Source: Robiginitomaculum sp.
GTDB lineage: Bacteria; Pseudomonadota; Alphaproteobacteria; Caulobacterales; Maricaulaceae
DNA length: 35,660 nucleotides
Direction of reading: 5' to 3'
Assembly (NCBI GenBank): GCA_015485155.1
Contig: WFUF01000011.1
Location: 1 to 35,660, forward strand
Made by a program: the position numbers and the translations under genes. The notes under the pieces are model-generated. The model was given only the letters and a program-made list of their open reading frames with translations, was not told the origin of the DNA and did no database searches. Shown here piece after piece: positions 1 through 35,651 of this stretch (positions are counted from its first letter, which is position 1; every line of letters starts with the position of its first letter).

Positions 1-2297
<2,297 letters not shown>

Positions 2298-2336
2298 CAG
2301 CAATGTTCATAAGCAGTGAATGTATCGAACTTTTTG

Positions 2337-2436
2337 GTCCTATCGCCTATCGGCTACTTGAGGACTTTTTATCTGTCCTATCGCCTATCGGCTACTTGAG
2401 GACGGGTTGCGTCCTATCGCTTCGCTACTTGAGGAC
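2337..2436 (-). repeat. Three tandem hairpin repeats in the 16S-23S spacer
   Basis: Three direct repeats lie at 2337-2365, 2375-2403 and 2411-2436. The first two are identical 29-mers. The third is a 26-nt variant with an altered middle. Each begins GTCCT and ends AGGAC, so each can form its own small hairpin, and the third has a GCGAAGC-type inner stem. The gaps between them are only 9 and 7 nt. They sit about 40 nt before the 23S 5' end in the primary transcript. A role in processing or termination/antitermination is possible but not demonstrated. Confidence 0.85.
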
Positions 2437-2740
2437 GAACGCCTCAAACAGACACAAGCAATAACACAAAAGTTCAATCAAACACCAGCTCTTAAACATC
2501 GCGCCAGATACCCGGCACACTGATAATGCACCGGGATTATAGATGTGTTTCTGATCTGCTCGTTTAAGGGGACGCATCTATGACCATAATTGGAGCAGTC
2601 ATAAGCACGCCGAACAGATCCTCCTTTACAATGTCAAAACGTGAACTGCCAAAGCAGACACGAATTCGGATCTCTAACGTTTAACGATCATAAAATCACA
2701 GCGGCAAACAGTCCTTGAAATAGCAGAGCGCCAGGAAAAA
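2437..2740. other. Spacer between tRNA-Ala and the 23S leader repeats
   Basis: About 300 nt of transcribed spacer with no tRNA or convincing gene. Open frames overlapping the tRNA-Ala end here are not protein-like. One half of the 23S processing stem should lie in the leader, but its partner is beyond the window edge and cannot be checked. Confidence 0.7.
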
Positions 2741-2816
2741 TGGTGGAGCCAGACGGGTTCGAACCGACGACCCCCTGCTTGCAAAGCAGGTGCTCTCCCA
2801 ACTGAGCTATGGCCCC
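2741..2816 (-). tRNA. tRNA-Ala (anticodon TGC)
   Basis: A 76-nt cloverleaf read on the minus strand. It has a GGGGCCA/TGGCTCC acceptor stem, the GGTTCGAACC T-arm, anticodon TGC (complement at 2781-2783) and an encoded 3' CCA (complement at 2741-2743). It is the second of the two spacer tRNAs of the rRNA operon, nearest the 23S gene, as usual in alphaproteobacteria. Confidence 0.98.
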
Positions 2817-2906
2817 TATTAGAAACACCAACAACGCCCCTTGAACATAACCCAAGCAAAACGTCCTCAAGCAGCAAGCCTTAGCGTTGCGTCAGGACAG
2901 GCAAGA

Positions 2907-2983
<77 letters not shown>

Positions 2984-3076
2984 GACTGCGCTGTGAAATG
3001 CAGATTGCAAGGCCTATTACGCACCAGACAACCTATCAATGATCGTTATATCCCTCACCTTGGAGGAATGTAACGC

Positions 3077-3109
3077 TGGAAAGAGAAACGAAGACAGCGA
3101 CGATCCGCT
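3077..3109 (-). other. 3' strand of the 16S rRNA processing stem
   Basis: This stretch is an imperfect inverted copy of 4858-4890 in the 16S leader. The first 14 nt (3077-3090) are perfectly complementary to 4877-4890, and the rest pairs with a few mismatches. In the primary transcript the two would close a long helix around the 16S rRNA. Such stalks are the classic RNase III target in rRNA maturation. Confidence 0.85.
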
Positions 3110-3121
3110 AGAGTTCGGTGT

Positions 3122-3138
3122 CATGAGGAAACCTCATG
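3122..3138 (-). other. Small perfect hairpin in the 16S-tRNA spacer
   Basis: A 7-bp perfect inverted repeat (CATGAGG and CCTCATG) with an AAA loop lies between the 16S 3' end and tRNA-Ile, next to the processing stem. It has no T-tract, so it is unlikely to be a terminator. Confidence 0.6.
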
Positions 3139-3210
3139 CACCATTTATGTCAATGAAAGGGTGTTTGTTAATTACATCCTAGAATGTAGCTAGATCAAAA
3201 ACCCATCCTT

Positions 3211-4686
<1,476 letters not shown>

Positions 4687-4901: not shown

Positions 4902-4912
4902 TGTCAAAGAGC
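4902..4912 (-). promoter_or_regulatory. rRNA leader boxA-like antitermination site
   Basis: On the minus strand this reads GCTCTTTGACA, close to the E. coli boxA TGCTCTTTAACA. It lies in the 16S leader between promoter and gene, where NusB/NusE-dependent antitermination is assembled. The same 11-mer recurs at 14657-14667 outside any rRNA operon. Confidence 0.75.
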
Positions 4913-13111: not shown

Positions 13112-14302
13112 ATGTTTGGTAAGTTCACCCTCACCTTTGTTGCAAGCGCTGTTATTTGGCTGGGCGGCTGTGAGCCTGACAACGACAAGGCAAACAACAG
13201 TAAAATTGATACCGTAGCCATTGTCTGCGAAGACTGTCCCAGCTTAAACAAATTTACGCAAATACTGGACAGATCAAACCTTGAAGCCTCATGGATAGAG
13301 GAAGTCAAAACCTATATGAACAAAAGCCGGATACCAAAAGCATCTCTGCCGATTGAATTTAGCGTAAGAGACTTTTGCAATGACCCGGCCAGTCAAGAAT
13401 TTAACCAATTACAGGAAAGCTATATTGCCCAGTTTGAACAGATTGCCGCGGCCAGACAATCATGTACGGCAGATTGCACAATAAACATCAATAGCGCGGA
13501 GTATTGCGCATTTGATGCGCTGTTAACCCGGCAAGACAAGGAGTGGCCGCAAATCTCACTGGCCTTGCAGAATGCAGATATTCTACTGCAAGGTGCCGAT
13601 CAATCCCAAAGAAGTATAGTGGCGCAGGTCAATATGACTATGAACGGTGCCGCCATGGCCGCACAGTCCGGACTAACGGACAATTTTGAAATTCTGCTTG
13701 GCAATAAAACAACAAAGTCTGATGATGTGGAACTAAGCCTTGCTGTTAAAGAGCTGTTTGAGCTTGGTACAGCATTGCAGGCAATGTACTGGGCCAAGCT
13801 TGGCAATAAGCAGGTTGGGGATGCTGGCAATCGTCTGGTTGCACTGTCCAGCAAAATTGAGACCATCGGCGCTGAAACCCAATTGGCCTTAAATCGGGCT
13901 GAGGTTCTTGCGCCTTTGCGACGCCAACAATTGGCAAAACGCAATATTGATGCGGTGCTGGAATTGCAGTCCATAAAGAACATACTTCTGAGCGCGAAAA
14001 ACTCCGCGCCCCTGTTGAGGCCAGATACTTCGGCAAATGCCAATAATCCTGCAGCAGGAAATTCAGTGATTATGCAAGCTGCGGCGAAATGCTTTGCAAA
14101 ACTATCCCTAAACACCGCCATAGCACACGAATTTGGCCAGGTCATTCAAAGTGAATTGCAATCCTGCCGCTCATTCGCCCCTTGCCAGGCGGCAGCGGCT
14201 GGGGACTCAAAAAACCTGAGCAATATTATTGAGCACAATCTTAATTCTAAAGCCAAAACCGAAAAACTGATGCTGTCAGTCCGCAAGGCAATTTGCACTT
14301 AA
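13112..14302 (+). CDS. Predicted lipoprotein of unknown function
   Basis: 396 residues from the ATG at 13112, chosen because a GGAG site lies 7 nt upstream and a short lipoprotein signal follows directly, ending in the lipobox LGGC with Cys20. Earlier in-frame starts at 12947 or 13088 are less likely. The mature part is mostly helical with long Ala/Gln/Leu-rich stretches, a CEDC pair near the N-terminus and several more cysteines (CTADC, CRSFAPC). This suggests disulfides in an exported helical bundle. I recognise no family. It is likely anchored to the inner or outer membrane facing the periplasm. The divergent neighbour is also secreted and unassigned. Confidence 0.8.
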   Translation: MFGKFTLTFVASAVIWLGGCEPDNDKANNSKIDTVAIVCEDCPSLNKFTQILDRSNLEASWIEEVKTYMNKSRIPKASLPIEFSVRDFCNDPASQEFNQLQESYIAQFEQIAAARQSCTADCTININSAEYCAFDALLTRQDKEWPQISLALQNADILLQGADQSQRSIVAQVNMTMNGAAMAAQSGLTDNFEILLGNKTTKSDDVELSLAVKELFELGTALQAMYWAKLGNKQVGDAGNRLVALSSKIETIGAETQLALNRAEVLAPLRRQQLAKRNIDAVLELQSIKNILLSAKNSAPLLRPDTSANANNPAAGNSVIMQAAAKCFAKLSLNTAIAHEFGQVIQSELQSCRSFAPCQAAAAGDSKNLSNIIEHNLNSKAKTEKLMLSVRKAICT

Positions 14303-14392
14303 AGCACCTCTTGTAAGCTGCGGCTGAAGCACTGGCAAAGAGGCAGAAAACCTCGCTAAGTGCAAGGATGGACTTACGTCGCGCAGGACGCA

Positions 14393-14604
14393 AGTGACGG
14401 TTTGGGGTGAGGGTCAGTGACGATGGTCACCGTGAAGGGTCACTTACAGGGTCATCGCAATTTTTCGCTGTCCCTTGAGTGATACTTGATATCCCCTGTA
14501 ATCACACCAAAACAGCACTTTTTGATAACCAGATGACCCTTAAATGACCCTTCTATATACTAACTGACCCTTGGGATAAGGGGATAAGTGATAACGATGC
14601 CCGC
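14393..14604. repeat. Dispersed ~211-bp intergenic element, copy A
   Basis: Shares its whole length with copy B at 35441-35651, from AGTGACGGTT to GCCCGC. The left arm has GGGTCA-type sites starting at 14411, 14424 (TGGTCA variant), 14437 and 14449. The centre (14463-14520) matches copy B at 57 of 58 positions. The right arm has TGACCC at 14534, 14545 and 14565. It encodes no plausible protein. It lies 90 bp behind the unknown lipoprotein gene and directly before an extended -10 promoter. Confidence 0.9.
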
Positions 14605-14616
14605 AATCTTAAAACC

Positions 14617-14625
14617 TGTTATAAT
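14617..14625 (+). promoter_or_regulatory. Extended -10 promoter before the phoX leader
   Basis: TGTTATAAT gives a perfect -10 (14620-14625) with the TG extension (14617-14618). No good -35 is present, which extended -10 promoters can tolerate. Transcription would start near 14632 and run through a structured leader toward phoX. Confidence 0.55.
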
Positions 14626-14920
14626 GTAAGAGTTGGGGCAAAGCCCCTTACAAAATGCTCTTTGACAGGTGAATATTTTTCTCAAAACCAATAAAATAAA
14701 AGGTTTTGTGCACTCGTGACGCGAAAGCAATCTTAACGGGTAAGCATATAAGTGTTGCCTGCCTCTGGCAGTTATGCGCAGGGGAAAACCGGATAAGCGT
14801 TTTTACTGCTGGATTTGTGTATTAAACGCGATTGAGCAGTGTAGAATCACCCAAAAGCATTTATACTGGGCATTGATACGCAAATGCTCATTTTGATCCT
14901 TATTTGATGAAAGCTGTTTA
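14626..14920 (+). ncRNA. Candidate structured leader or small RNA with boxA-like motif upstream of phoX
   Basis: Non-coding. A GGGGC-AAA-GCCCC hairpin (14635-14647) is followed by GCTCTTTGACA at 14657-14667, identical to the boxA-like motif of the rRNA leader in this window. Further perfect stems follow: CAAAACC/GGTTTTG (14683-14708), GCAA/TTGC enclosing CTTA/TAAG (14727-14758), CTGCC/GGCAG (14759-14771), GCGTTT/AAACGC (14797-14829) and GCATTT/AAATGC (14857-14887). It matches no riboswitch or known RNA that I recognise. No terminator is seen before the phoX start, so a long 5' leader is as likely as a separate RNA. Confidence 0.4.
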
Positions 14921-16366
14921 ATGAACCTGTCAAGACGCAATATACTAAAATCCGGGCTGGCGGTAAGTGCTGCCTTTGGTGGCATGTCCGTACTGGCGGC
15001 ATGTGGTAATGATCGTAATTCTTTGGAAATTACCCTTGATAAATACGGTAAACTAATTCCCGACCCAAAAGGAATCCTGGATCTTCCCAGAGGATTTGAA
15101 TACAAAATCCTGTCTCGGGCCGGTGAAAAAATGAACGATGGCTTGCGCGTTCCCGCAGACCCTGACGGCATGGCCGCCTTTGCCGGTAAAAACGGCACCA
15201 CAATCTTGATGCGTAATCATGAACTAAACGCCAAAGATCTGGCAAAAGAGGATGTCCGGGCTGGCAAGCCTGTATCTCCCTTTGGCAAGGATGATGAGTT
15301 GCTTGATGCGGTAGATCGCTCAAAAATTTATGACTTTCACAAAAGCGGCAGAGCCATGGCCGGCGGGGTTACCGGACTGGTAATTGATCCAGGCCCACTG
15401 CATGTAAAGCACCAATGGCTGGCACTTACCGGCACCTATGACAATTGTGCGGGCGGGCCAACACCGTGGAATAGCTGGATCAGTTGCGAGGAAACCCGCG
15501 CCAGAGCCGGCGAGAAAGGTGCAAAAGATCATGGCTGGGCCTTTGAAGTAATAGCAGATCCAGAACTTGGCCTGCAGGATCCTGTACCCTTAAAAGGTCT
15601 GGGCCGCTTCAAGCATGAGGCAGCAGCCGTAGATCCGGCTACCGGTATTGTCTACCTTACGCAGGATGATTGGGGCCATAACAGCCTGCTCTATCGCTTT
15701 GTACCCGATATTCCAGGCGAAATGATCGATGCTGATAGCGGTAGGTTTCAGGCACTTATGGTCATAGGACAGCCGGGACGTGATTTACGCAACTGGCCCC
15801 TGTCCAAAGGTAAAAACGTGCGCTCTGGGCAATGGCTTGATGTGCAATGGGTGGATATTGCAGATCGCCACAACCCGGAAAATGACATTGAGGATCGTGG
15901 CGTTGAAAACGGCGCTGCGATTTTCTCCCGTGGCGAAGGCATCTGGTATGGAGATCAGGAATTATATTTTGCCTCCACTGATGGCGGAGCTAAAAAACTC
16001 GGGCAGATCTGGCGCTATGTTCCTTCCAGGTTTGAAGGAACAGAATTTGAAGCCAATGAACCAGGACGGCTGCAATTGTTCTTTGAATCTCCGGATAAAG
16101 CGGTTATGGAATACTGTGACAACATAACCATTGCCCCGTGGGGCGATATTCTTATTTGCGAAGATGAATATTCTGATGGAAATGGTGACAATTATTTGCG
16201 GGGCATAACTCCGCAAGGTAAAATATACACTCTGGCGCGTTCTGCGCTGAAACAGAAAAATGAGTTTTGTGGCGCATGTTTTGGACCCGATGGAAAAACC
16301 CTGTATTTCAACCTGCAACAAGATGGACTGACCCTGGCCGTGCGCGGCCCGTGGAAAGAGTTATAG
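14921..16366 (+). CDS. phoX: PhoX-family phosphatase (DUF839), Tat-exported lipoprotein
   Basis: 481 residues. The N-terminus combines a twin-arginine motif (SRRNIL, residues 4-9) with a lipobox LAAC (Cys28), so it is probably exported folded and lipid-anchored. PhoX signatures are clear: NCAGG with Cys176, the SCEE pair (about 188-191), RFKHEAAAVDP, EYCDNITIAPWGD, ICEDE, and the C-terminal CFGPDGKTLYFNLQ and RGPW. PhoX enzymes are Ca/Fe-dependent alkaline phosphatases that free phosphate from organic esters. Some DUF839 members have other or unknown roles, so substrate use is inferred. No Pho box is visible upstream. The next gene overlaps its end by 16 nt. Confidence 0.88.
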   Translation: MNLSRRNILKSGLAVSAAFGGMSVLAACGNDRNSLEITLDKYGKLIPDPKGILDLPRGFEYKILSRAGEKMNDGLRVPADPDGMAAFAGKNGTTILMRNHELNAKDLAKEDVRAGKPVSPFGKDDELLDAVDRSKIYDFHKSGRAMAGGVTGLVIDPGPLHVKHQWLALTGTYDNCAGGPTPWNSWISCEETRARAGEKGAKDHGWAFEVIADPELGLQDPVPLKGLGRFKHEAAAVDPATGIVYLTQDDWGHNSLLYRFVPDIPGEMIDADSGRFQALMVIGQPGRDLRNWPLSKGKNVRSGQWLDVQWVDIADRHNPENDIEDRGVENGAAIFSRGEGIWYGDQELYFASTDGGAKKLGQIWRYVPSRFEGTEFEANEPGRLQLFFESPDKAVMEYCDNITIAPWGDILICEDEYSDGNGDNYLRGITPQGKIYTLARSALKQKNEFCGACFGPDGKTLYFNLQQDGLTLAVRGPWKEL

Positions 16367-35440: not shown

Positions 35441-35651
35441 AGTGACGGTTAGAGGTGAGGGTCACTCTTAAGGGTCAACGTGAAGGGTCACTTATAGGGT
35501 CAGCGTAAATTTCGCTGTCCCTTGAGTGATACTTGATATCCCCTGTAATCATACCAAAACAGCACTTGATGGTAATAAACTTACCCTTAAATGACCCTTG
35601 ATGACACTGACTGACCCTTGAGGATCGGGGATAAGTGCAAAAGGCGCCCGC
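35441..35651. repeat. Dispersed ~211-bp intergenic element, copy B
   Basis: Second copy of the element at 14393-14604. Four perfect GGGTCA sites start at 35459, 35472, 35485 and 35497 (spacing 13, 13, 12). The core 35510-35567 matches copy A at 57 of 58 positions. The right arm has TTACCC (35581), TGACCC (35592), TGACAC (35602) and TGACCC (35612). It begins 25 bp after the VUT-transporter stop. A short minus-strand open frame across it is not a credible gene. Confidence 0.9.

Follow-up and report, generated by a model that had tools for sequence, protein, structure and literature searches.

A dispersed family of predicted boxA-bearing small RNA genes that seem to exchange short segments in a marine Robiginitomaculum

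A non-coding sequence found twice in a stretch of DNA from the marine bacterium Robiginitomaculum sp. appears to be the upstream control region of a multi-copy family of predicted small RNA genes. The stretch analysed (the window) comprises 35,660 nucleotides (GCA_015485155.1, contig WFUF01000011.1, forward strand). Roughly 45 similar copies are scattered through the chromosome, they seem to swap short pieces with each other, and they often sit where gene order differs between two close species. The window's own genome (hereafter G000; 2,394,068 bases, 27 contigs, 99.99% complete) contains 44 matches to a pattern for the core of the repeat (up to 3 mismatches), while the reversed pattern gave none. 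Likewise, a pattern for the downstream boxA gave 41 matches and its reversed control 0. A similarity search of the same genome returned 44 matching stretches, some of them pieces of one copy. As two divergent boxA copies (L110 and L111) have no core match, the number of copies is estimated at about 46, or one per 52 kb. By our count, copies lie within about 200 bp of 19 of the 54 contig ends, as expected of repeats that break short-read assembly.

The preliminary description had reported two homologous segments of about 211 bp, at 14393-14604 and 35441-35651, with sharp ends and a central 58 bp differing at a single position. This observation is confirmed: both segments align over their whole length and the central 58 bp differ at one position. 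Two corrections are, however, required. The right end, GCCCGC, is not an end, since copy 2 stops 9 bases later only because the contig ends at 35660, and in other copies homology runs on for about 200 bp through a -10, a hairpin, boxA and a T-run. Further, the left end AGTGACGG is shared by many copies but not all: in the copies L023, L025 and L069 the AGGGTCA units begin directly after unrelated sequence. A REP-like palindrome such as CGTCACTTACGGC..GTAAGTGACGG abuts the head of many copies (e.g. window 14380-14400), and its half is the AGTGACGGTT end noted in that description. The interpretation offered there is partly supported. A multi-copy intergenic family with conserved short sites and drifting spacers was correctly proposed, and there is no Rfam match. 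However, the 211 bp are not a free-standing element but the upstream half of a predicted RNA gene, and the drifting spacers are a limited vocabulary of words shared between copies. Clean empty sites, suggested as proof of mobility, were not obtained: where a G000 flank was found without the element in the close species, the neighbouring gene was also a different one.

The features of the two copies, and of the rRNA operon used as reference, are as follows.
14393..14604 (+): head (upstream control region) of copy 1
14410..14454 (+): left array of GGGTCA-type units, with AGGGTCA at 14410, 14436 and 14448 and a degenerate ATGGTCA at 14423; in copy 2 the units are mostly spaced 13 bp
14479..14508 (+): core GTGATACTTG-N6-CCTGTAATCAC, imperfect inverted halves around a variable 6-bp spacer
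14534..14572 (+): right array of three TGACCCTT units (14534, 14545, 14565) in inverted orientation to the left array
14580..14590 (+): GGGGATAAGTG box, 29 bp upstream of the -10
14617..14625 (+): proposed extended -10 promoter TGTTATAAT
14632..14651 (+): P1 hairpin GTTGGGGCAAAGCCCCTTAC at the 5' end of the predicted RNA
14657..14667 (+): boxA-like GCTCTTTGACA, identical to that of the rRNA leader of this genome
14683..14708 (+): P2 stem AAACC..GGTTT
14632..14804 (+): predicted ncRNA of copy 1, about 173 nt, ending in a T-run
35441..35651 (+): head of copy 2; the RNA part lies beyond the end of the contig
4902..4912 (-): boxA of the rRNA operon (GCTCTTTGACA), recognised by its sequence and position; the 16S gene lies at 3212-4684 (-)

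Across copies the order is two to five units of AGGGTCA plus about 6 bp, the core, inverted TGACCCTT units, GGGGATAAGTG, a variable stretch, the extended -10, the P1 hairpin, GCTCTTTGACAGGTRAATA, a stem AAACCC..GGGTTT, a variable region, and TTATCC..GGATAA-like sequence followed by a T-run. The whole unit, head plus RNA, is roughly 400 bp. From the presumed start to the end of the T-run, 70 copies extracted from G000 and from a Robiginitomaculum MAG (G006) measure 171-178 nt in 49, 193-198 nt in 9 and 180-203 nt in 4, while no terminator could be assigned in 8. It should, however, be noted that generic scans for -35/-10 promoters and for terminators did not score the proposed sites in copy 1; a terminator-like stem was scored at 14867-14890 (+), which is a possible alternative end.

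The evidence for RNA structure is good for two stems, and none beyond inspection exists for the rest. The arms of P1 co-vary: 57 distinct sequences fold at -8.34 kcal/mol on average, whereas permuting the 3' arms between copies gives -7.48, and none of 300 permutations reaches the real value. The P4 region behaves likewise (2 of 300). However, the same arm-swap test was not significant for P2, P3 and the terminator (57, 214 and 198 of 300), with a control segment giving 133 of 300; these five tests used the 49 copies of standard length. The whole RNA is only slightly more stable than mononucleotide shuffles (mean z -1.0 for 30 of 49 sequences). RNAalifold on the MAFFT alignment predicted no pairs, probably because stems of different length are misaligned, and the arm-swap tests were used in its place. 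No Rfam family matched the element at the gathering threshold, and at E<=1 in 8 loci there were only four microRNA-family hits, all in the locus L181 outside the unit.

The family was found only within the genus in the searches performed. The core pattern over a collection of 84,980 species gave 38 stretches, of which 30 belong to one Robiginitomaculum MAG (JALSYJ), taken to be G006 because contig numbers and sequences agree. The other 8, in other organisms, and two hits in IMG/VR viral contigs lack the GGGTCA arms and boxA and are taken as chance matches. A phage or plasmid origin is not supported, as blastn at 1e-5 found no match in 50,697 phage and 72,556 plasmid records. Blastn with the head matched 2 of 61 genomes, G000 and G006, the latter carrying the same subfamily with 31 boxA sites. 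A sequence-only model of the -10 to P2 stretch found, in 81 genomes, 42 matches in G000, 31 in G006, 9 in G009, 2 in G012 and 1 in G014 (further genomes of the genus), whereas single weak matches in G022 and G024 do not show the architecture.

A boxA-context pattern with up to 1 mismatch matched 13 of 18 genomes of the genus (11 of the 16 besides G000 and G006), among them 44 sites in G009, 31 in G014, 10 in G016, 8 in G015, 7 in G012 and 6 in G017, with 0 for the reversed control in every genome. Not every such site is a demonstrated copy, and the pattern does not fit the main subfamily of G000 and G006, whose boxA context is one base shorter. Of 36 diverged sites with at least 270 bases upstream, 12 of them from G009 (L188 and L196 were dropped for length and L177 was left out as a G000 copy), the GGGGATAA/TTATCCCC box, in the same or reverse-complement form, is present in 25, an extended -10 in 22, and three or more GGGTCA/GTCCC-like units in 14, against 2.1%, 0.6% and 2.2% of 3,000 random positions. 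One concern is that these features were chosen after inspection of the sequences. Over 299 genomes of the order, four of them from the genus, the strict pattern hit G017 (4 sites) and three single sites; the single hits in three other genera have none of the upstream features and are presumed to be rRNA leaders. Overall identity between most subfamilies (0.53-0.59) is hardly above that of shuffled sequence (0.53), with closer pairs G000-G006 (0.77), G007-G013 (0.73), G009-G014 (0.69) and G012-G015 (0.62). The relationship across the genus therefore rests on ordered motifs and not on alignment, and G016, G012 and G015 fit least well. Divergent single copies also occur inside genomes that carry the main subfamily, namely L185 (G006, contig C120) and L111 (G000, C25:14055), which may be older members or functional paralogues.

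Copies are mosaics of shared short words. The slots between the conserved boxes hold 12 words for the core spacer in 60 copies of the two genomes and 31 words for the next slot in 58 copies. As the variable words are shared between copies, the possibility of unique, CRISPR-like guide sequences was dropped. Words combine loosely but not freely. With both genomes pooled, co-occurrence is below 3.2 times expectation in 39 of 45 slot pairs, and the six higher ones (5.0-15.7) all involve the P1 segment, while mutual information exceeds its permutation mean by 2 sd or more in 24 of 45 pairs. Within G000 this holds for 10 of 45 pairs and falls with distance (mean z 1.9 for neighbours, about 0.2-1.1 at five to seven slots), whereas within G006 it holds for 20 of 45 without a clear fall until the farthest slots. 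Further, a copy keeps almost no memory of its chromosomal site up to the terminator. Pairs of copies sharing their downstream flank in G000 and G006 (n=19) are hardly more alike than shuffled pairs (n=105): differences are at most 0.024 from the head to 60 nt past boxA (e.g. 0.782 vs 0.758; 0.732 vs 0.731) and 0.06-0.07 from +60 to +145, and then become large at the terminator (0.855 vs 0.615) and in the flank (0.869 vs 0.483). Eight pairs sharing the upstream flank have similar values inside the element, without a control of their own.

With regard to REARRANGEMENT, of 82 G000 flanks compared with the DNA around G006 copies, 33 matched over at least 150 bp and 17 over at least 1,000 bp without a break. 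Eight G006 copies have both flanks matched. In six of these the two flanks lie at different G000 copies, and in two (L028/L056 and L035/L060) both agree. In five of the six, one of the G000 partners is a contig-end copy whose other side is unresolved, while the other partner is a complete G000 copy with a different neighbour. As background, about 16.6 kb of 19,991 bases (20.0 kb) of the window without a copy align to G006 contig pieces with no break inside a piece; 3.3 kb and the last 58 bases next to copy 2 did not align. It should, however, be noted that G006 is a fragmented MAG (about 360 contigs) that seems to hold strain variants, as two contigs (C332 and C143) cover the same part of the window region at 98% and 95% identity, so that single junctions may be uncertain.

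Two further searches for G000 flanks in G006 recovered few. In one, 5 of 24 segments gave a single good match, and a further 80-base segment was itself a dispersed repeat that took 82 of the 87 matches (40 of 95 candidates were scored). In the other, 6 of 32 segments matched at 84% or more, two weakly (40 of 52 candidates scored), and one of the six (L103) aligned mainly through dispersed repeats. Most of these G000 sites thus have no G006 comparison. The flanks found in G006 without an element in the 500-700 bases examined (L025, L023, L033, L010, L016, L030, and L008 downstream) run into different neighbouring sequence, so these are changes of gene order and not simple insertions. At the downstream flank of L015, G006 holds a decayed copy (L243, contig C144) in which the array, the GGGGATAAG box and the -10 remain but core and boxA are gone, and at the downstream flank of L017 it holds a copy in the opposite orientation. 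Other dispersed repeats (..CTCAAGTAGCGAAGCGGTAG..) lie in the same intergenic regions and may cause part of this. A second dispersed repeat, ..CTCAAGTAGCGAAGCGGTAGGAC.. / ..AGTAGCCGCTAGGCGATAGG.., often in tandem-like runs, is present at G006 loci L213-L237 and at G000 loci L012, L013, L023 and L103, and often lies beside the elements; it is the repeat to which the 80-base segment belongs.

Of 54 copies with enough flank, 25 lie between convergent open frames, 12 point with both neighbours, 8 against both, 4 between divergent frames, and 5 are undetermined, based on simple ORF calls. The element thus tends to avoid the promoters of its neighbours and shows no sign of being the leader of one particular gene.

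Collectively, these observations are best explained, with moderate confidence, by a multi-copy ncRNA gene family with its own proposed promoter, homogenised and reshuffled by recombination between copies. The order of upstream units, box, extended -10, hairpin and boxA, and the near-constant RNA length, fit an autonomous RNA gene best, and the mosaic and the exchanged flanks fit ordinary recombination among dispersed copies. The sequences themselves show the shared upstream region (AGGGTCA units, a symmetric core, inverted TGACCCTT units and a GGGGATAAG box, with a GGGGATAAG/TTATCCCC box in diverged genus copies), an extended -10-like sequence, a 5' hairpin with co-varying arms, an rRNA-type boxA, further stem-like segments and a T-run at a nearly fixed distance, as well as diverged units with the same order of motifs in other genomes of the genus, the near absence of site memory and the frequent location of copies where gene order differs between two close species. 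Transcription, the function of boxA, including NusB/S10 binding and resistance to Rho, and the mechanism of exchange are, in contrast, inferred. In this view, a sequence-specific regulator reading the repeated GGGTCA units would switch on sigma-70 transcription from the extended -10, NusB/S10 would load on boxA so that RNA polymerase is not stopped by Rho within the untranslated RNA, and a structured RNA of about 174 nt would be released at the T-run. General homologous recombination between copies, by gene conversion and crossing over, would homogenise the family within a species and shuffle both modules and flanks; nothing needs a dedicated recombinase, although the core with its variable spacer leaves that possible. 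Mobility over long times is likely from the copy number and from presence or absence between species, but it is not shown. The RNA may act as a base-pairing regulator or as a sponge for Nus factors that tunes rRNA synthesis, and we lean to a Nus/boxA-linked role because boxA, with the -10, is the most conserved block.

Other readings are less likely. A MITE-like non-autonomous element that carries a promoter and is moved by a transposase or recombinase encoded elsewhere, with the RNA as passenger or by-product, would account for the high dispersed copy number and for a G000 copy (L025) whose left flank continues in G006 without the element, with a sharp border at the first AGGGTCA. However, no clean empty site with both flanks adjacent was found among the flanks that matched, left borders differ between copies, and copies at shared flanks differ in sequence as much as shuffled pairs, which transposition alone does not explain. 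A repeat search of 14300-14700, which did not include the right end near 14804, showed internal inverted GGGTCA/TGACCC units but no pair at the outer ends. A similarly unlikely alternative is a BIME-like DNA-level element, that is, a protein-binding array for nucleoid organisation, replication or partition whose promoter and boxA look-alikes are incidental. About seven GGGTCA/TGACCC-type units in two inverted arrays, together with a symmetric core with a variable 6-bp centre, are typical of dimer binding, and copies occur about once per 52 kb. Yet boxA and the -10 are the most conserved blocks and keep their places in many diverged genus copies, and both the co-varying P1 arms and the nearly constant RNA length argue against this reading. 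The unit also does not consist of short (20-40 nt) palindromic units as REP/BIME do; a REP-like palindrome (..AAGTGACGG) only abuts many copies.

The inverted half sites of the core, its spacer words shared by subsets of copies and the different flanks at the copies also raised the possibility of a tyrosine recombinase crossover site, with the GGGTCA units as arm sites, at which the cell reshuffles its chromosome. This appears very unlikely, as exchange is not confined to the core: words on both sides vary in combination, and similarity between copies with the same downstream flank is lost all the way to the terminator and not at the core. A more far-reaching reading, which the data do not rule out but which remains improbable, is that the genus carries an RNA-only dispersed element, a prokaryotic counterpart of a SINE in form, whose copies exchange short cassettes so fast that the family behaves as one recombining pool. 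Such an element would also provide the places at which the chromosome is cut and rejoined, so that the same units would diversify an RNA and reorganise the genome.

No prior description of the family appeared in literature searches, which covered a limited set of titles and beginnings of abstracts, or in the passages of PMC11109978 examined. The modular intergenic repeats BOX, STAR (PMC3532100) and BIME/REP are likewise dispersed, modular, lineage-limited and without apparent coding capacity, but here each copy looks like a whole transcription unit with control region, extended -10, boxA and near-fixed RNA length, and copies often mark changes of gene order. Multi-copy bacterial sRNA families under one regulator, such as csRNAs, Qrr and CcsR, also comprise several similar sRNA genes with a common control region, whereas the present family of predicted genes has tens of copies and not a handful, an rRNA-type boxA, a mosaic of words and diverged versions by species. 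The boxA is identical to that of this genome's rRNA leader, but compared with rRNA leaders and other boxA-bearing RNAs (PMC4807359, PMC5725501) the predicted RNA is short and stand-alone, and not an rRNA operon or mRNA leader. It is also not a CRISPR array; boxA occurs upstream of such arrays. Mobile or repeat sequence candidates of ncRNA discovery pipelines (PMC11109978) are structured motifs in dozens of copies per genome, judged there as probably selfish; the main text of that paper has no occurrence of Robiginitomaculum, Caulobacter, Maricaul- or boxA. Bacterial dispersed repeats are mostly short palindromes or transposon derivatives. Tens of copies of what looks like a complete small RNA gene with an rRNA antitermination signal, evolving in concert within a species by exchange of short segments, would be an unusual case of concerted evolution in bacteria and a new set of boxA transcripts, and may also explain part of the gene-order change between close species.

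The rRNA operon at the start of the window (1-4684) has two tRNA genes in its spacer and a 23S gene cut by the contig end. The gene downstream of copy 1, on the same strand (14921-16366), is a 481-aa ORF that seems to resemble PhoX/DUF839-type secreted proteins.
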